Shown here piece after piece: positions 27,259 to 38,248 of a stretch of DNA of 64,000 nt. The stretch is from Bacteroidales bacterium (lineage in GTDB: Bacteria; Bacteroidota; Bacteroidia; Bacteroidales; Muribaculaceae). A program made the position numbers and the translations under genes. Every line of letters starts with the position of its first letter. Within the stretch, counting starts at the first letter, position 1. The notes beneath the pieces were generated by a model. That model did no database searches, was not told the origin of the DNA, and was given only the letters and a program-made list of their open reading frames with translations. The stretch is from positions 164,026 to 228,025 of the forward strand of contig JAAVGM010000011.1 in the NCBI GenBank assembly GCA_014800245.1, written 5' to 3'.

Positions 27259-30200
27259 GTGAAAAATATACTACGACTTTTTTTCCTGCCGATTGTTTTG
27301 TTAGCGGCATTTATATATTCTCCCTCCTTGATGGCCCTTCCGCAGGGCTTCTTCGCTGAAAATTCCGTATTGGCAGAAGGGAAATGGGTGAGAATTGAAT
27401 CCAACTCCACAGGGATGCAACTCATTCCGGCCGCTTCGTTGCGTGCAATGGGTTTCACGGATATCAACAAGGTGAACGTATATGGAGGCGGTGGAAGAAT
27501 GCTCCCCGAAGCCCTCAATGAGAAAATCACCGACGATCTCCCTCTCCTCCCATGTGTCAGAACCGACAAGGGGATCATATTCTTTTCCACAGATGTAAAT
27601 TCATGGAAGAGCGCATCGGATGTGCCCTATTCTCACACCATCAACCCTTACGATACAAAAAGCTACTATTTCCTTTCCGATCGAAGCGTGGAGAAAGGTA
27701 AGGAGATGCCTCGCGTGGAAGCTCCATATTCAGGCGCACAAGCCATGACCACCTTTGTGGAACGTTTGGTGCATGAATCTGAATTGGCGGGTCCCGGCGA
27801 ATCGGGGCGCACCATCTTCGGCGAGGATTTCCGCACCACTCGCAACCGATCTTTCCCCTTCACGCTGACCGGAAGCGTCTCCGATTATGCCACAGTGAAA
27901 GTGAAATTCGGCGCTAAATCATCCACCCAGTCCTCTTTGCTTATCTCCGCCAACGGCTCGCGGCTCCCCTCCACAAGTGATGACAATATTCGTGCTATCA
28001 CCGGAAGTTCCGAGATTATACGAGTGGCTAACACCATAAAGGAGGTGAAAAATCCCGGCACAAGTCTTAATATCGGGATTGAATATTCATCCACCGGACA
28101 GGTGCAATTTGCTCGCCTTGAATATATCGAGGTGTTCTACGACCGCGAACTGAAATTGCAGAACGGATCTCTATATTTCTATAATGCCGATCCTGATGAA
28201 GAAGCAGCGGCTATCGACGGATGCAGCTCAGATACCCGCATCTGGGATGTGACTGATCCCACTCGTCCGAAAGAGATGGCGTTCAATCTTTCCGGATCGG
28301 TGGCTACAATCTCTCTATCGGGCGAGTATCAGGAGTTTATAGCTTTTGATCCGCAGAAAATCACATCTGCCGCGCCGGTATGGAAAGCTATTCCCAATCA
28401 GAACCTCCACGCTTTGGAGACTCCCGATATGGTGATCATCTCCTACGACACATATATGGATGGCGCAAAAAGAATCGCCGCCCTTCATGAGCAACACGAT
28501 GGAATGAAGGTGCATGTGCTCCGACCGGAGGATATATACAATGAATTTTCCGACGGATCTGCTGATGTATCGGCTTTCCGCAAACTCTTGAAGATGTGGC
28601 ACGACCGTGGAGGCGAACGCAATATCCGTTATTGCCTGCTCATGGGGCGTCCGCATTTCGACAATCGTGTCCTCACCAATGAAGCCAAGGCTATGGGCTA
28701 TCGTCCGATGCCTATTTGGGAGGAGCCGAATGTCTTTACCGATGCGGGATCATATTCCACCGATTGCTACATTGCCATGCTCGATGATTGCAACGAAGGA
28801 TTCAATATGGCTTCGGCAAAGATGCAGGTGGCTGTGGGGCGTATCCCCGTTAAGACGGCGGATGAAGCCAATGATGTTGCAGCGAAAATCGAGAAATATG
28901 TGCTTCAGCCTGATTACGGTGCATGGAGAAATAAGATGCTGATTGTGGCTGATGATATCGATGATTCTTCGATGGCCGACGCTAAGCCTTCAGGAATGAC
29001 CACTTTCTTCGATCAGAGCCAGAGCATATATAATATCCTCAAAGGGAGCAAGGAGGGGAAAAGATACCTCTTCGAGCGTATATATCTCGATGCCCACAAA
29101 CTCGAAACCACGAGTCTCGGTCTTCGTTACCCCACTGCTCAGGCCAAGCTCCTATCCAATTTCAACGACGGAGTGGCTTTCGCCAACTATCTCGGACATG
29201 CAAGCGAAACAAGCTGGACTGTGGAGCGCATCCTCACAATGGATGATATCCGCGCGATGAACAACCGCAACCTCCCCTTCCTTTTCGGCGGAACTTGCGA
29301 GTTTGCGCATTGGGATGGAGCCACTATCACCGGAGGCGAACTGATGGTTCTTAATCCTTCGGGAGGCGTGATAGCAATGGTGATGCCCAGCCGAACCGTA
29401 TATATCACACAGAATTACTATCTCAACCGCGCTATGGCTCCTTATCTTCTCAAGGAAAATGAATTGGGAGAACGCCCCCGATTAGGCGATTTCTACCGTA
29501 GAGGGATGAACGACCTGTCTGACAGCAACAAACTCCGATATTGCCTTATCGGCGACCCGTCTATCACATTCCCTCAGCCCGTGAATGTGGTGGAGATTGA
29601 GTCGATTGCAGGCAAAGAGATAAATGATGACAATGACGATTTTCCCGAACTCCCGGCTCTTGGCAAAGCGGAAGTGAAGGGAAGGATTGTAAAGCCCGAT
29701 GGTCAGCTTGATGCGGAATTCAACGGATCGCTTGAGCTTATCCTTTTCGATGCGGAGAAGGTGGTGGATACCTCTTCTCTCGGAAAAGGACTCGAACGAA
29801 TGTATAACGACCGCGCCACTCGCCTTACCACGACTTCTGTGAAAGTGGAAAACGGACTTTGGTCGGCACGTCTGATGCTCCCCGCCGAGATTGAAAACAA
29901 CTATTCGCCTGCAATGATTACAGCCTATGCATGGAATAGCAGCACCGGCGAAGAAGCACATGGCATGACCGAGAATCTTTATGTATATGGCTACGATGAT
30001 AATGCCGAGCCCGACACAAAGGCTCCTGTCATAGAGACGCTTTATCTCAATAGCCCGTCGTTTACCAACGGCGCGGTGGTCAATATGAATCCTATCGTAT
30101 TTGCCACTTTCTCGGATGAATCGGGCATCAATGTTTCGGATGCCGGAATTGGTCATCAGATGATCATCACAATTGATGGAAAGAACCATTATACGGATGT

Positions 30201-30678
30201 GAACAGCTATTTCATCTCCGATCCCGAACGAGAGGGAGCAGGATCCATCTGCTATCCTTTGGAGGGTATCGAACCGGGCAAGCATACGCTGACCCTTACC
30301 GTATGGGACAATGCCAACAATTCCGCCACAGCATCTATTGAATTTAATGTAGGTGCAGCTTTGGATCCGGTGATCACCGATCTCTCCACCAATGTAAACC
30401 CTGCATCGACAAGCGTGGTGTTTAATGTTACAATCGACCGTCCGAACAGCAACGTCGAATGCCTCATTGAGGTGTTTGATCTGATGGGACGCACAGTTTG
30501 GCAGTCGGAAAGGAGTGTCACTACCGATATGAACAGCTCGCTTTCCGCTTCCTGGAATCTTTGCGATGGAAGCGGAGTGAGAGTGCCGAGAGGAATCTAC
30601 CTATATCGTGCCACTGTACGCACCCCGGAAGGAACCTACTCTTCGCAGAGCCGTAAACTTGCTGTGACTGCGCAATAA
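27259..30678 (+). CDS. porU: Type IX secretion system sortase PorU (C25 peptidase)
   Basis: C25 His/Cys motifs NYLGHASETSW and GTCEFAHWD; FlgD-like C-terminal Ig (VFDLMGRTVWQSE...RGIYLYRATV). GTG start. Confidence 0.85.
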   Translation: MKNILRLFFLPIVLLAAFIYSPSLMALPQGFFAENSVLAEGKWVRIESNSTGMQLIPAASLRAMGFTDINKVNVYGGGGRMLPEALNEKITDDLPLLPCVRTDKGIIFFSTDVNSWKSASDVPYSHTINPYDTKSYYFLSDRSVEKGKEMPRVEAPYSGAQAMTTFVERLVHESELAGPGESGRTIFGEDFRTTRNRSFPFTLTGSVSDYATVKVKFGAKSSTQSSLLISANGSRLPSTSDDNIRAITGSSEIIRVANTIKEVKNPGTSLNIGIEYSSTGQVQFARLEYIEVFYDRELKLQNGSLYFYNADPDEEAAAIDGCSSDTRIWDVTDPTRPKEMAFNLSGSVATISLSGEYQEFIAFDPQKITSAAPVWKAIPNQNLHALETPDMVIISYDTYMDGAKRIAALHEQHDGMKVHVLRPEDIYNEFSDGSADVSAFRKLLKMWHDRGGERNIRYCLLMGRPHFDNRVLTNEAKAMGYRPMPIWEEPNVFTDAGSYSTDCYIAMLDDCNEGFNMASAKMQVAVGRIPVKTADEANDVAAKIEKYVLQPDYGAWRNKMLIVADDIDDSSMADAKPSGMTTFFDQSQSIYNILKGSKEGKRYLFERIYLDAHKLETTSLGLRYPTAQAKLLSNFNDGVAFANYLGHASETSWTVERILTMDDIRAMNNRNLPFLFGGTCEFAHWDGATITGGELMVLNPSGGVIAMVMPSRTVYITQNYYLNRAMAPYLLKENELGERPRLGDFYRRGMNDLSDSNKLRYCLIGDPSITFPQPVNVVEIESIAGKEINDDNDDFPELPALGKAEVKGRIVKPDGQLDAEFNGSLELILFDAEKVVDTSSLGKGLERMYNDRATRLTTTSVKVENGLWSARLMLPAEIENNYSPAMITAYAWNSSTGEEAHGMTENLYVYGYDDNAEPDTKAPVIETLYLNSPSFTNGAVVNMNPIVFATFSDESGINVSDAGIGHQMIITIDGKNHYTDVNSYFISDPEREGAGSICYPLEGIEPGKHTLTLTVWDNANNSATASIEFNVGAALDPVITDLSTNVNPASTSVVFNVTIDRPNSNVECLIEVFDLMGRTVWQSERSVTTDMNSSLSASWNLCDGSGVRVPRGIYLYRATVRTPEGTYSSQSRKLAVTAQ

Positions 30679-30723: not shown

Positions 30724-31365
30724 ATGAATCAAATCAATAATATAATCCTTCCCGAGCCTACGCTCCGCCGTCTCCCTTGGTATCTGGCCTATGTAGAGAC
30801 GCTTCAGAAGAATGATGTGGAATTTGTGTCATCCACTCAGATTTCACGAGCTTTGAGCGTGGATGCCTCTCAGATTGCCAAAGACCTCTCTTTCCTGAAT
30901 ATCCGAGGAAAGACTCGTATAGGCTATGAGGTGGCGGCTCTGGCAGAAGGGCTGTCGGAATTCCTTGGATTCTCACAATGCCATAGGGCTTACATGATAG
31001 GATGCGGATCCCTGGGAGAAGCATTGATACGCGATTCAGGCCTGTCGAAATATGGACTCGAAATTGTGGCCGGATTTGATGTCAATCCTCAGGTGGTGTC
31101 GCGCACCGACCTTGGAGTGCCGATATATCATATCGACCGCATATATGAGATAATGGAAGAGAATCCCGCCTCAATCGGGATTCTTGCCGTCCCCTCGGAA
31201 ATGGCGCAGGAATCAGCCGATATTGCTATCGGGGCAGGAGTGAAGGCGATATGGAATTTCACTCCTTATCGTGTGAAGGTGGCAGAAGGGATTGTGATGG
31301 CCAATACATCCATATATGCCCATCTCGCTTTGATTTTCAACCGACTTAATTCAATGGAAAGATGA
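30724..31365 (+). CDS. rex: Redox-sensing transcriptional repressor Rex
   Basis: LPWYLAYVETLQKNDVEFVSSTQISRALSVDASQIAKDLSFL, Rossmann motif GCGSLGEAL, IWNFTPYRV. Confidence 0.93.
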   Translation: MNQINNIILPEPTLRRLPWYLAYVETLQKNDVEFVSSTQISRALSVDASQIAKDLSFLNIRGKTRIGYEVAALAEGLSEFLGFSQCHRAYMIGCGSLGEALIRDSGLSKYGLEIVAGFDVNPQVVSRTDLGVPIYHIDRIYEIMEENPASIGILAVPSEMAQESADIAIGAGVKAIWNFTPYRVKVAEGIVMANTSIYAHLALIFNRLNSMER

Positions 31366-32044: not shown

Positions 32045-35000
32045 ATGAAAACGAATCTTTTCAAAATATCTCTCATAGCAATCGTGTGCGGATGGTGGGC
32101 GTCATTCTTTCATGCAGAGGCATCCGAACTTTACCCGTTCAAATACTCTTCAATCCTCTCTTCAGGAGATTGGGTGAAAGTGCGCACGTCCGAATCCGGA
32201 ATATATGAAATCACTTATGACGAACTCATCGGGATGGGATTCAAGAATCCGCAGAATGTCGGTGTGTTCGGGAAAGGCGGAACTGCCCTCCCTATAAATT
32301 TCACCGATGGGAAAGCTCCTTTGATCACGGATGATCTTGCACCCGTTGCGACATGGCATCATAACAACCGGATATATTTCTATGCCTGCGCCACAGAGGA
32401 GATAGCCTTTAATCCCTCCTCCTCGCTTTTCGAGCGCCGGAGCCGCAACATCTATTCGCTCGACGGAGCTTATTTCCTTTCCGAATCTCCGGAAGCCATG
32501 ATGATTTCCATGAATGATAAACCTTTAGGTAACTCCTCCTCATATTATCTTGGATTTGATTATGCTTATCATGAAGAGGATATTTTTCATAACACCACCA
32601 AGACAGGTCAACTCTTCTGGGGAGAGAATCTGCTGACCGATTCCTACAGCTGGCAGCTCTCGCTCCCTCTTATCGACAATAATGCCAAGGCTCGTCTAGA
32701 ATGTCGTGTTTTTGCCGCCGACAAGAGTTCCGGAATATTTCAATATGGTGTGAGACAAGCCACATCGGGAAATATATCATTTAATGTGCGCCACCCCGAA
32801 CCGGGATCGGGAAGCAAGTCGAATCCGGAATTCATGCATATGGCTAATTCCATTTCATCTCTATCCATTCCCGGAACCGAGGCGGAAGTATATGCAAAGA
32901 TCAGCAATGCCAAAGGGGATTTTATCAATCTGGATTATTGGATTCTTACATATGGGAAAATAGTCCCTGATTTCTCACTCTCAAATCAGCCTCAGGAACG
33001 ATTCACTGTGGTCAGAAAAGGGACACGCCCCGGAGTCATTCCGGTTGAGTCTGACAAAGAGATCGTGGCGTTTGATGTGACCAATCCTGCTGCAGTGGGT
33101 TTATTGGCAAAGGAATCGGAGGGAAAAGAAATCAATTTCTATTTTGACCCCTCCAAATCTTATCGAAACCTTATCTTCTGCGATCTTTCACGCAGTCAGA
33201 AAAAGGTGTCGGGATTCAAGAAAATTGATAATTCCGATCTCCATTTCATGGCCTCTCATGGAGCGGATTTCCTTATAATTACCGTTCCAAAATTCATGGA
33301 TTTTGCCACTCGTCTTGCTGATCTTCATCGCAAATATGATGGGATTAATGTGCTGGTGGTCTCCACAGAGGATGTGTATAATGAATTTTCAGGAGGGATA
33401 CCCGACCCTATGGCTTATCGCGCCATGATGAAAGCCACCTACGAAGGGTCGCAAGAAAGATTGAAGAATCTCCTCCTGGTCGGACCCGAATATGGGAATT
33501 TCCGAAATGTTCTCTCCGGCAACGATCCTGAAAATTATATCATCGCTTTTCAGGATAATAAGGTAAGTGCCGATACGGATGCCGCTCACGCAATGGATTT
33601 CATGGGATTCGCCGACGATTATATTTTCACTAATCTCCAGAACAATACGATGCATGTCGGCGTCGGGATTCTCCCTTTCTCTTCCTTGGAAGAGAGCGAG
33701 ATGTATCTGAGGAAAGCCGAGCGCTATCTTGCCGATACTGATAAGGCAGCCATTGTGAATGAGGCTTTGTCGATTGGTGGATCGGGCGACAACCACACCC
33801 ACGATGCCCAAAGCGTTTCGCTAAAGGAATTTTGGGATGCTTATAATCCCGACCTACAGGTGAATGCTGTAGTGGCTATCGATGCATATGGCAAAAAGAA
33901 TTCTACTGAAAAAATATTTTCCGATCTCAGATATGGGAAATTGCTCACTGCCTATTGCGGACATGGATCCTCTTTGGGTCTTAACAATCCGATCACCATT
34001 CGCACAACCGATGTACTGAGGATACAAAACTCAAAACCGGGTTTCATGATAATCTGTGCCTGCGATATCTCCCACCCCGACCGAGCCATGAGCGGACTCG
34101 GAGAACGTATCGTCACCTCCACCGAGAATGGGATGGTAGGGTCTATTCTTGCGTCGAGGACAGTGTGGTCGGGACAGAACTTCGAACTTGCAAAGTTGAT
34201 CTCTTCCTCTCTTTTCGTTGATCCCGCAGGGGCAAAGACCACGGGGAGTGGGTCGCAAGTCGCATATTATCGTGAAGAGACTCCTACAATCGGAGAGGTG
34301 TTTGCAAGAGCCAAGACAATTTCAAATTATTCCAATTCATTGGCTTATATGTATATCGGAGATCCTGCTCTAAGGATTCCCGTGCCTCTGCGAAGAATCC
34401 AGGGGAAAACCTCTCTAAGCGGAAAGGGGTATCCGAGACAGACAATAAAAGTGTCGGGAACGATAGGTGTCCGCGACTCTATTCACCTCAGTGATACCAT
34501 CCACATTGGCGAATATATCTTGGATAAGGACACTCGCTATAATGGAAAGATTGTTGCCAAACTTATGGCACCCAAGAGAGTGGAAAAATCCAAGGATCTT
34601 GTCTCAGGAGCTTCTAATAATACAAAGGAGTTGTATGTAACATATCTCGACGATCGATTGTCTGAATTTTCTGCGGAAGTGAAGAATGGCGCATTCGATT
34701 TTTCCATCACTCTCCCTGAGGATGCCGACATATATGCCGGCGAATCTCTCCAGTTGATGCTGAGTGCGTATGATCCGTCGAGACAATTAGCCTCTGCCGG
34801 ATATCTATTGATCCCTATTGGAGAAGGGATAAGCGGAGTCGGCACCGACAACTCCACACCGACACTAAATGCAATCATCAGCTACAAGACACCGGTCATA
34901 ACAATCAAGGTGGGCGATAACAATTCTCTTGGAGCAGCTTGCTTGAGAGCGGAGATTGATGGCAAACCTGTCAGGGCTTTCCTTCGCGACGCGGATGCTG

Positions 35001-35422
35001 ATTCCAAGAATCTCGAATTTGCAATCTTCACGGATAATATTGAAAAGGGGCCTCACACTCTTTCGCTTTGCGCCTCCGATGCTGTAGGGAATAAGGCGGA
35101 GGAAGAGATTGAGTTTGAGAAAGCTGACTTTTCGGCTCCTCTCTCCCTTATTCCGGAGTATAAGGCCGCCGCAGATGAATTATCATTCTCTATCGAAGGA
35201 GAGGATGCCGAATCGCTTCTCATAATAATTGAGAATGAGAATCACGACCTTGTGATTCAATCGCCGGTGAAAGGGAATAGTTATCTTTGGAATTGTTCGG
35301 ATTCCTCATCGAAGAGGGTGAAGCCGGGTCTTTATCGTGCGAAAGTTATATCTTCAAATGATATTTCCACGCCCCTCTTCTCAGAATGGGTGAACTTTGC
35401 TATATTGGAAATCCCCAATTAG
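32045..35422 (+). CDS. Second PorU-like C25 family peptidase
   Basis: Same layout as 27259-30678: SGDWVKVRTSESGIYEITYDELIGMGF; C25 motifs TAYCGHGSSLGL and IICACDISHPD. Confidence 0.8.
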   Translation: MKTNLFKISLIAIVCGWWASFFHAEASELYPFKYSSILSSGDWVKVRTSESGIYEITYDELIGMGFKNPQNVGVFGKGGTALPINFTDGKAPLITDDLAPVATWHHNNRIYFYACATEEIAFNPSSSLFERRSRNIYSLDGAYFLSESPEAMMISMNDKPLGNSSSYYLGFDYAYHEEDIFHNTTKTGQLFWGENLLTDSYSWQLSLPLIDNNAKARLECRVFAADKSSGIFQYGVRQATSGNISFNVRHPEPGSGSKSNPEFMHMANSISSLSIPGTEAEVYAKISNAKGDFINLDYWILTYGKIVPDFSLSNQPQERFTVVRKGTRPGVIPVESDKEIVAFDVTNPAAVGLLAKESEGKEINFYFDPSKSYRNLIFCDLSRSQKKVSGFKKIDNSDLHFMASHGADFLIITVPKFMDFATRLADLHRKYDGINVLVVSTEDVYNEFSGGIPDPMAYRAMMKATYEGSQERLKNLLLVGPEYGNFRNVLSGNDPENYIIAFQDNKVSADTDAAHAMDFMGFADDYIFTNLQNNTMHVGVGILPFSSLEESEMYLRKAERYLADTDKAAIVNEALSIGGSGDNHTHDAQSVSLKEFWDAYNPDLQVNAVVAIDAYGKKNSTEKIFSDLRYGKLLTAYCGHGSSLGLNNPITIRTTDVLRIQNSKPGFMIICACDISHPDRAMSGLGERIVTSTENGMVGSILASRTVWSGQNFELAKLISSSLFVDPAGAKTTGSGSQVAYYREETPTIGEVFARAKTISNYSNSLAYMYIGDPALRIPVPLRRIQGKTSLSGKGYPRQTIKVSGTIGVRDSIHLSDTIHIGEYILDKDTRYNGKIVAKLMAPKRVEKSKDLVSGASNNTKELYVTYLDDRLSEFSAEVKNGAFDFSITLPEDADIYAGESLQLMLSAYDPSRQLASAGYLLIPIGEGISGVGTDNSTPTLNAIISYKTPVITIKVGDNNSLGAACLRAEIDGKPVRAFLRDADADSKNLEFAIFTDNIEKGPHTLSLCASDAVGNKAEEEIEFEKADFSAPLSLIPEYKAAADELSFSIEGEDAESLLIIIENENHDLVIQSPVKGNSYLWNCSDSSSKRVKPGLYRAKVISSNDISTPLFSEWVNFAILEIPN

Positions 35423-35445: not shown

Positions 35446-35501
35446 TATCTTTCTGCGCCCGTTTCTGCTCATTCAAGATCAGGAACGGGCGCAGAAAGAT
35501 A
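35446..35501 (+). terminator. Long hairpin / putative terminator
   Basis: TATCTTTCTGCGCCCGTT (35446-35463) pairs perfectly with AACGGGCGCAGAAAGATA (35484-35501). Confidence 0.7.
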
Positions 35502-35530: not shown

Positions 35531-35672
35531 TTTTATTTGTTACGATTAATAAAATTAAAAATATTCGATTTTTATTTGTTACGATTAATAAAAAAGACAT
35601 TTACATAGATTTTATTTGTTACGATTAATAAAATTCGTTTTATAGCAATTTTATTTGTTATGATTAATAAAA
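35531..35672 (+). repeat. Four-copy array of 24-bp repeat TTTTATTTGTTACGATTAATAAAA
   Basis: Copies at 35531-35554, 35570-35593, 35610-35633 and 35649-35672 (last has C to T); 39-40 bp period; each has 7-bp terminal inverted arms TTTTATT/AATAAAA. Confidence 0.97.
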
Positions 35673-35677
35673 TTCCT

Positions 35678-35685
35678 TATTTTTG
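35678..35685 (+). promoter_or_regulatory. Putative promoter -7 box TATTTTTG, with TTTG at 35654-35657 as -33
   Basis: TAnnTTTG match; 20-nt spacer from a TTTG inside repeat copy 4. Confidence 0.6.
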
Positions 35686-35699
35686 TGGATAAAAAAGAC

Positions 35700-36908
35700 A
35701 TGGAGATAAAAGACCGCTCAACATATACCAATCATATTCTAAAATATATAGATAAGGGTATTATGATTGCCTTGACCGGACAGCGAAGGGTCGGCAAAAG
35801 TTTTATATTAGCTCAATTGGCTGATATTATAGCTATAAAGAATCCCGAAGCCAATATAATCTATATTAATAAGGAGAAGAGCAAATATAGCGAGATACGT
35901 GATTATAACGATCTTTCTAAATATGTGGAGGAACGATTATCACCCGATAAGCACAATTATCTTCTTATCGACGAGGTACAGGATATAGAAGGATTTGAAC
36001 ATACCCTACGAAGTCTAAATGCCGATGAGGAATGTCAGATCATTGTCACCGGAAGCAATGCAAAAATGCTCTCTTCTGAATTATCCACCTATCTTGCCGG
36101 ACGTTACGTGGATATACACATCAATAGCTTATCTTACAGAGAATTTCTTCAATTTCATAATCTTGAAGATTCGCAAGAAAGTTTAGAAAGTTATCTCTCG
36201 GTCGGAGGATTACCTCATCTCTATAGGTTAGGTCTTGACAATGAAGATATGATATGGGAATATCTTCAAAATATATATAACACTATAGTGCTCAAAGATG
36301 TGGTTCAACGCGAGAATCTCCGAAATGTCACTTTGTTTGAAAACCTTATGAAGTTTTTGAGTGATAATGCCGGACAACTTGTTTCAGCCACTTCATTATC
36401 TAAATATCTTAAGGCGCAAAAGGTTGAACTCACGCCTCTGACGGCCATTAACTACATAAAGTCGGCGTCTAATGCCTATATCGTGAATAAAGTTCCACGC
36501 TATGATATCCATGGTAAGAAACTTCTTGAGAGTAATGATAAATATTACTTTGAAGATCTTGGACTCCGTAATCTCTTGGTTGGTAGCGACCGCACTAAGG
36601 ATATTGAGAAAGTGATGGAGAATGCTGTTTATTTACATCTTAAACAATTGGGTTATAAGTTATCGGTGGGTACTTTGCCCAACGGAGAGATAGATTTCGT
36701 GGCTGAAAAGAATGGAAAAGTAGTTTATTATCAGGTAACATATCTTTTGACCGACCAAGCCACCATCGATCGCGAATTTGGTAATCTTGCCAAGATCGAG
36801 GATAACTATCCAAAATTTGTTATTTCGATGGATCCTTTATCCCGCCCCAAGGATTATGAGGGGATAACGCAACTATCGTTGCGTCAATTTCTGATGACAG
36901 AAAAGTAA
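35700..36908 (+). CDS. ATP-binding protein, AAA + DUF4143
   Basis: GQRRVGKSFILAQL Walker A, YLLIDEVQDI Walker B, TGSNAKMLSSELSTYLAGRYVDIHINSLSYREFL, C-terminal nuclease-like fold region (GEIDFVAEKNGKVVYYQVTY). ATG 35700 preferred over GTG 35685 because of the promoter position. Confidence 0.9.
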   Translation: MEIKDRSTYTNHILKYIDKGIMIALTGQRRVGKSFILAQLADIIAIKNPEANIIYINKEKSKYSEIRDYNDLSKYVEERLSPDKHNYLLIDEVQDIEGFEHTLRSLNADEECQIIVTGSNAKMLSSELSTYLAGRYVDIHINSLSYREFLQFHNLEDSQESLESYLSVGGLPHLYRLGLDNEDMIWEYLQNIYNTIVLKDVVQRENLRNVTLFENLMKFLSDNAGQLVSATSLSKYLKAQKVELTPLTAINYIKSASNAYIVNKVPRYDIHGKKLLESNDKYYFEDLGLRNLLVGSDRTKDIEKVMENAVYLHLKQLGYKLSVGTLPNGEIDFVAEKNGKVVYYQVTYLLTDQATIDREFGNLAKIEDNYPKFVISMDPLSRPKDYEGITQLSLRQFLMTEK

Positions 36909-37027: not shown

Positions 37028-38248
37028 ATGATGAAACGCAATCTTTTTATATTCTTCTCTCTTGCTCTAATTCTTGTTTCATTTTCCGCTCATGCTGATA
37101 ATGAAATCAAGGATAATGAATTCAACCCTGTAAATACAGGTGTGACCACCCTATCGATCGCTCCCGATGCGCGAGGAAGCTCAATGGGTAACCTTGGAGC
37201 CGCCACCGACCCGGATATGAACAGCCAGTTCTGGAACCCCTCCAAATACGCTTTCGGTTATTCCACCGGAGGTCTGTCGCTATCCTACACCCCTTGGTTA
37301 CGTAAGATCGTAAACGATATCTTTCTTGCCAACCTTGCAGGATATTGGAAACTCGGAAGCGGAGACAATCAGGCTCTGAGTGCGTCGCTTCGTTATTTCT
37401 CTCTTGGAGAGGTGACATCGGGAGGTTCTGAAGATGGAACAGCTGCAATGACCATCAACCCCTATGAGTTTGCAATCGACCTTGGCTATTCAAGAAAATT
37501 GTCGGAGAAATTCTCCATGGGTGTTGTGCTTCGTTATATCCTTTCCGACCTTTCATACAACAACACATACACCGGCGAAAGCAACACTGCCGCTTCGGCA
37601 TTCTCCGTTGACCTTTCCGGTTATTATGTCACCTATCCCATGGTAGGCCGCAATGAATGTCAGTTCTCATGGGGTTTCGACATCTCGAATATCGGTACGA
37701 AAGTGAGCTACGACCATGGCGCCAACAATGCCTTCCTCCCCACCAACTTCCGTTTGGGAGCCAACTTCATGTTCCCACTTGCCGACTACAATACCCTTTC
37801 GTTTGGTCTTGATCTTAACAAACTCCTTGTGCCCACCAAACCACGCGCAAAGGATTATGAGATGGAGACTGCCGAAGGACAGGCTGAATATCAGGAAGCA
37901 CTCGATAAATGGAACGACATGTCGCCTATCACGGGTATATTCAAGAGTTTTTCGGATGCTCCCGGCGGATTCGGCGAGGAGCTGAAGGAGATCAACCTTT
38001 CATTAGGTGCGGAATATGCATACAATCAGCAGTTCTTTGCTCGCTTGGGTTATAACTATGAGCATCCTTCAAAGGGTGGTCGATCTTACTTCGCCTTCGG
38101 TGCAGGATTCTCTCTGAATGTGGTTCAGCTCGATGCGTCATATATGCTCGCCACAGCCCAGAGCTCACCGCTCGACCAGACTCTGCGTTTCACACTCACA
38201 TTCGATATGGACGGTCTGCGCGACCTCTTAGGCAAGCGAGGAAGATAA
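37028..38248 (+). CDS. porV: Type IX secretion system outer membrane protein PorV
   Basis: [37 protein letters not shown], FadL-like beta barrel; near porU. Confidence 0.88.

Follow-up and report, generated by a model that had tools for sequence, protein, structure and literature searches.

The gene for a 402-residue AAA_14-DUF4143 ATPase (35700-36908) is directly preceded by four copies of a 24-bp near-palindrome, and this arrangement raises the question of what reads the repeats. (Positions refer to the window, the whole 64,000-nucleotide stretch of Bacteroidales DNA that was analysed; the array, its promoter and the ATPase gene lie on the forward strand.) Operator copy 1, TTTTATTTGTTACGATTAATAAAA, occupies 35531-35554, and copies 2 (35570-35593), 3 (35610-35633) and 4 (TTATGATT, 35649-35672) follow at a pitch of 39, 40 and 39 bp. 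Copies 1-3 are identical and copy 4 differs by one T for C. The ends of each operator form a 7-bp inverted pair, TTTTATT...AATAAAA, and the 15- to 16-bp spacers are unrelated in sequence. The positions given for these repeats in an earlier, sequence-only reading of the locus are correct, and in dinucleotide-shuffled sequence the expected number of matches, with as many as 3 mismatches allowed, is 0.00. The genome of origin (2.15 Mb, 70% complete) contains, besides the four copies, one weak extra match with 3 mismatches. A CRISPR-like reading of the repeats is rejected in view of the 15- to 16-bp spacers and of operators that are palindromic and promoter-locked.

Bacteroidota promoters have a -33 TTTG element and a -7 consensus. 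Operator 4 spans a -33 TTTG (35654-35657), which is followed after 20 nt by the -7 box TATTTTTG (35678-35685), with the ATG at 35700 downstream; both elements stand where the sequence-only reading had put them. (GTG 35685 is an alternative upstream start, but orthologue alignment favours ATG 35700.) The -7 box conforms to a family-wide TAnnTTTG, in fixed phase to the palindromes: the centre of operator 4 lies 17.5 bp before it, the family mode being 16.5. Around the ATG, where a second operator of this promoter would be expected, none is recognisable.

This geometry is a property of the family. Orthologues were drawn from a protein search of the order that ignored repeats, so that loci found through their repeats are a small part of the set. 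Of 95 orthologue upstream regions, 65 have their best self-repeat spacing at 39-41 bp, as against 8 of 103 control upstreams, and mean lag-40 autocorrelation is 0.088 +/- 0.007 as against -0.009 in controls. Repeat sequence varies between orthologues; the geometry is kept. When 84 promoters are aligned solely on the TAnnTTTG box, blind to repeats, the two best palindrome centres fall at -16.5 and +23.5 from the box, a distance of 40 bp, the box itself falling in the intervening spacer. In 107 held-out promoters -16.5 is again best and +23.5 is tied second. The operators accordingly overlap their own promoter at fixed geometry; among orthologues of less than 43% identity this phasing is weak or absent.

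Linkage to DUF4143 genes in other genomes had been set as a test capable of refuting the proposal, and the proposal survives it. The exact 22-mer has one match among GTDB species genomes, where two full copies and a degenerate third lie 5' of a 91% identical DUF4143 gene, and allowing 1 mismatch across 297 genomes of the family adds 10 further genomes. In 7 of these 11 repeat-found loci other than the window an orthologue, 72-91% identical and intact or cut by the contig end, lies directly downstream, and those seven loci are at unrelated genomic places. In two more of the 11 (L008 and L010) the operators stand beside a DUF4143 C-terminal remnant. These two (L008, 1400-1550; L010, 1340-1570) are decayed copies that look as if the 5' and middle parts of the gene had been deleted. 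At another of the 11 (L017, 1501-1562), two opposed operators 39 bp apart have a distant DUF4143 homologue on one side and a PhoH-like gene, with its ATG at 45 bp, on the other; they are possibly a relic or a captured promoter. The last of the 11 has one imperfect operator (L016, 1501-1522), just 5' of a cytochrome bd-type oxidase ORF, which is either a chance match or an orphan site.

The ATPase matches Pfam AAA_14 with 111.3 bits (cut-off 27) and DUF4143 with 63 bits (cut-off 28.1). The AAA_14 domain comprises residues 22-150 (35763-36149), with Walker A GQRRVGKS and Walker B DE at 91-92; Walker residues are invariant among orthologues. A winged helix-turn-helix (wHTH) is predicted at residues 210-284 (36327-36551) from secondary structure and covariation, with helices 210-222, 230-239 and 246-262 and strands 274-278 and 281-284, in a part of the model where pLDDT is below about 60. 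Only secondary structure is taken from the AlphaFold model, because its mean pLDDT is 51 with 2 sequences and 62 with 5. Foldseek matches of this model to RFC, DnaA, Orc1/Cdc6 and MuB, all at TM ~0.3, were set aside as generic AAA+ similarity rather than specific relationship, and a profile search of the PDB yields a P-loop match to DnaA alone. The DUF4143 match, residues 199-346 (36294-36737), includes a PD-(D/E)XK-like core, E307-D332-Q345. E307, D332, Q345, E359 and K372 are invariant in 166 orthologues, in which the E-x-K active-site motif is absent (mostly Q345-x-A/S/T, the K being replaced), and this makes cleavage by the ATPase uncertain. The invariant K372 and E359 could stand in for the missing motif.

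An indication of what reads the operators comes from covariation of half-site bases with the 402 protein columns, examined in 67 non-redundant loci (set A) and a held-out 35 (set B) that are non-redundant also with respect to A. Residue 247 ranks first of 402 for base 6 in set A, in set B and in the two combined, with a combined Z of 11.8 against a permutation maximum of 7.0; of seven pairs named from set A, this one alone ranked first in set B. Asn247 goes with A at base 6 (0.91 and 0.90) and Gln247 with G (0.65 and 0.88), while Lys247 occurs mostly with A and Pro247 mostly with T. A stricter null lets operator bases evolve along a tree built without residues 221-280 (the wHTH). Under it residue 247 is still top for base 6 (z 8.1) and for base 4 (z 4.5), 248 is top for base 5 and 231 for base 10, 244 is second for base 6, and for base 8 residue 231 comes third and 235 fifth. 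On the tree, Asn247 is paired with A in 40 of 40 cases and Gln247 with G in 28 of 33, and the exchange between Gln and non-Gln at 247 takes at least 6 parsimony changes. The operator, then, covaries with the protein's own DNA-binding domain. The covarying residues fall in helix 2 (230-239) and at the start of helix 3 (246-262) of the predicted helix-helix-turn-helix-wing unit, a region of low model confidence. Covariation with bases 4-6 points to TPLTAINYIKSA (residues 245-256, including 247 and 248; 36432-36467) as the probable recognition helix. Not all of the signal is in the wHTH: under the tree-based null the leading column is 134, in the AAA domain, for base 8 and 286 for base 7, both outside the helices. 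Protein and operator similarity show no significant association in a sliding-window Mantel test. A contrast of closest pairs does not single out residue 247; that test is weak because most swaps at 247 (e.g. among N, K and L) keep base A.

Divergence of the operators follows that of the proteins. Operator similarity is 18.3 of 20 at 95% protein identity or more and then falls through 16.2, 14.7, 13.2, 10.9 and 9.9 to 9.6 below 45%, which is background. Same-subfamily pairs that share one genome (31 pairs) all have at most 55% protein identity, and their operators are at the background of 9.6. No neighbour gene is conserved across 76 loci, which leaves the ATPase as the sole linked candidate binder. 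(One large neighbour cluster, comprising 32 loci, reads as an antisense frame of the ATPase gene itself and was discarded.) That the ATPase binds its own repeats, as had been suggested from the window alone, gains support from DUF4143 linkage, from operators phased to the -7 box and from wHTH covariation.

Very probably, then, the array constitutes cognate operators of the downstream ATPase, which would repress its own gene through mutually insulated sites. The wHTH would bind each ~24-bp palindrome, probably as a dimer with one recognition helix per arm, and sites every ~40 bp would allow several dimers to line up; assembly on the phased sites might be cooperative and perhaps ATP-dependent. 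One operator lies over the -33/-7 spacer and the next, in most family members, would lie over the transcript start, so that occupancy should block RNA polymerase, amounting to negative autoregulation. Engagement of the AAA+ or nuclease-like domain with some other ligand, or with DNA, might lift the repression. Since operators and recognition helix diverge together, co-resident paralogues would not cross-regulate. Array and gene also move as one cassette.

The surroundings of the gene bear on this last point. The ATPase gene sits between porU (32045-35422, a C25 peptidase with a Peptidase_C25 Pfam match) and porV (37028-38248). Four close relatives (L249-L252) have no ATPase gene in front of porV, and the window's array and gene are therefore an insertion. 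One highly similar copy neighbours fumarase in a Bacteroidales MAG (L006), and another lies at a different place in a further genome (G273, L015). The DNA of the window resembles these two copies from within the operators (35574 and 35605) as far as the stop codon (36906), which implies that array and ORF travel together, and nothing else with them. On sequence comparison, then, array plus ORF is a movable unit. Inspection found no target-site motif at empty sites, no terminal inverted repeats or target-site duplication at empty sites or unlinked insertions, and no repeat copy at the 3' border of the unit. Upstream, a strong hairpin, TCTTTCTGCGCCCGTTTCTG...CAGGAACGGGCGCAGAAAGA, follows porU (35450-35500) and is perhaps its terminator; in the closest relative inspected (L249) the porU-porV gap has no such hairpin. 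Further upstream are ORF 27259-30678, presumably a large T9SS/C25-type peptidase-like protein nearly in tandem with 32045-35422, and, between these two peptidase-like ORFs, ORF 30724-31365, which we take to be a Rex-like regulator.

Orthologue-specific operators also count against the rival that the array serves a different protein, a host or trans-acting regulator for which the ATPase gene is only a target: were a host regulator shared, the operator sequence would be shared too, but it differs among orthologues and tracks both ATPase identity and the recognition helix, and no linked gene is conserved in the 76 loci. The arrays do resemble ordinary operators, and some defence genes are known to have wHTH regulators, such as the WYL-domain regulators described as co-localising with defence systems (PMC9122601). 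A separate regulator is nonetheless unlikely. The mobility of the unit invites a different reading, in which the repeats are the recognition ends of a mobile or homing element, cut or pasted by the nuclease-like domain. Array and ORF are exactly the unit that moves between sites, one of its borders is marked by the repeats, and the fold is PD-(D/E)XK-like; against this, the 3' repeat copy, the terminal inverted repeats and a target-site motif in empty sites are all missing, the 166 orthologues have another residue, mostly A/S/T, in place of the catalytic K of E-x-K, and the array has a position fixed relative to the promoter, making such an element highly improbable.

The sequence-only reading had also offered an iteron array. 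The AAA+/wHTH protein would then be an Orc1/Cdc6- or DnaA-like initiator, and the repeats the origin or partition site of a selfish replicon. An AAA+ protein with a wHTH and phased sites by its gene does recall Orc1/Cdc6, DnaA and Orc1/Cdc6 are among the weak profile and fold matches, and homologues occur on plasmids. This interpretation is not supported and is very improbable, in view of sites locked to the -7 box and often overlapping the start, of a chromosomal gene at porU-porV with no other replication gene there and no conserved neighbour, and of invariant residues in the PD-(D/E)XK-like domain.

The preferred reading, self-binding and self-repression, nevertheless has analogues, which are matters of resemblance and not of membership. 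Archaeal Orc1/Cdc6 initiators are AAA+ ATPases whose C-terminal-side wHTH binds repeats beside their own gene, at the origin. The window ATPase shares the AAA+ domain, the (predicted) C-terminal-side wHTH and the repeats beside its own gene; unlike those of Orc1/Cdc6, repeats of the window type are promoter-phased and hypervariable, the protein has a PD-(D/E)XK-like domain, and no replication function is seen. In toxin-antitoxin operons, and with restriction-modification controller proteins, the operon's own DNA-binding product silences a defence or selfish gene from palindromic operators that overlap the promoter. Promoter-overlapping palindromic operators and a diverging specificity that insulates copies are common to these systems and to the window ATPase, for which repression is the presumed outcome, whereas in the latter regulator, ATPase and nuclease-like parts are in one protein and array pitches are 40, 33, 32 or 23 bp. 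Plasmid iterons are likewise direct repeats in helical phase beside the gene of the protein that binds them, which for the window array may be the ATPase; in contrast, this array is promoter-locked and chromosomal, with no evidence of an origin.

By profile, the ATPase is a member of PADLOC PDC-S01 (DUF4143, AAA_14; COG1373-type ATPases): profile PDLC04787 matches residues 2-400 with E 1.3e-141. PDC-S01 as presented in PMC12988326 is an AAA ATPase joined to PD-(D/E)XK, and the window protein has the same plan. That paper ranks it fourth in frequency among the defence systems and candidates of prokaryotes, validation being pending for most such candidates; a rumen survey (PMC13356809) reports it as the most frequent single defence locus, with 10,358 occurrences. 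Both sources, in the parts consulted, treat it as an abundant, unvalidated single-gene defence candidate, and the text of PMC12988326 mentions neither promoter, operator nor HTH. A literature search found no account of DUF4143 operators or of how PDC-S01 works. Putative self-reading operators in PDC-S01 are new relative to these two papers. Defence is a candidate role of the ATPase only, by way of its PDC-S01 membership. Evidence that such proteins recognise particular DNA at their promoters, together with the specificity residues and bases and the insulation of co-resident copies, would turn a little-explained DUF4143 domain into a testable regulatory switch, and could provide a first concrete handle on the function of common suspected anti-virus ATPases as well as a sequence-only route to the cognate DNA site of many family members.

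Arrays of other kinds precede other DUF4143 genes. The remaining full-length DUF4143 genes of the window's own genome have 33-bp arrays (L027, L028) or long palindromes (L025, L026). Across 41 Bacteroidales genomes, 89 upstream regions of DUF4143 genes from other subfamilies, with these four among them, were compared: direct repeats are significant in 48, and either repeats or a palindrome occur in 60, with spacings clustering at 32 (16), 33 (14) and 23 bp (9). Array spacing looks subfamily-specific when judged by eye from protein N-termini. Direct-repeat arrays of 33 bp (e.g. TATAGGAAAAGTGTATATTT), belonging to a separate subfamily, are seen at L332, L363 and L334 as well as at L027 and L028; 23-bp arrays accompany DUF4143 proteins of a 'GAVLIEGPKWCGKT'-like N-terminal type (L298, L299, L348, L351, L354, L357, L359, L366 and L369).

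Homologues with 39-40 bp repeats occur on plasmids of Ruminococcus albus, Ilyobacter, Peptoclostridium and Lachnospira eligens (weakly in the last). Relatives in several phyla share the layout, with a different DNA 'address' for nearly every family member. It is possible, and is put forward tentatively, that every DUF4143/PDC-S01 member, in bacteria and archaea alike, is a stand-alone AAA+ protein assembling on its own phased operator array, with a private, fast-evolving address, many copies coexisting in one genome as insulated self-monitoring switches; the promoter array might then serve as brake and sensor at once and be released when DNA invades or a phage takes over. Phage-labelled records holding homologues number 19, at less than 60% identity, and scans of viral contigs yield 3 relatives only. 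Five different small plasmids of Bacteroides sp. CACC 737 each carry a 48-52% identical relative, some matched in two pieces, and one Bacteroidales genome of 2.6 Mb (G299) has 29 DUF4143 matches.
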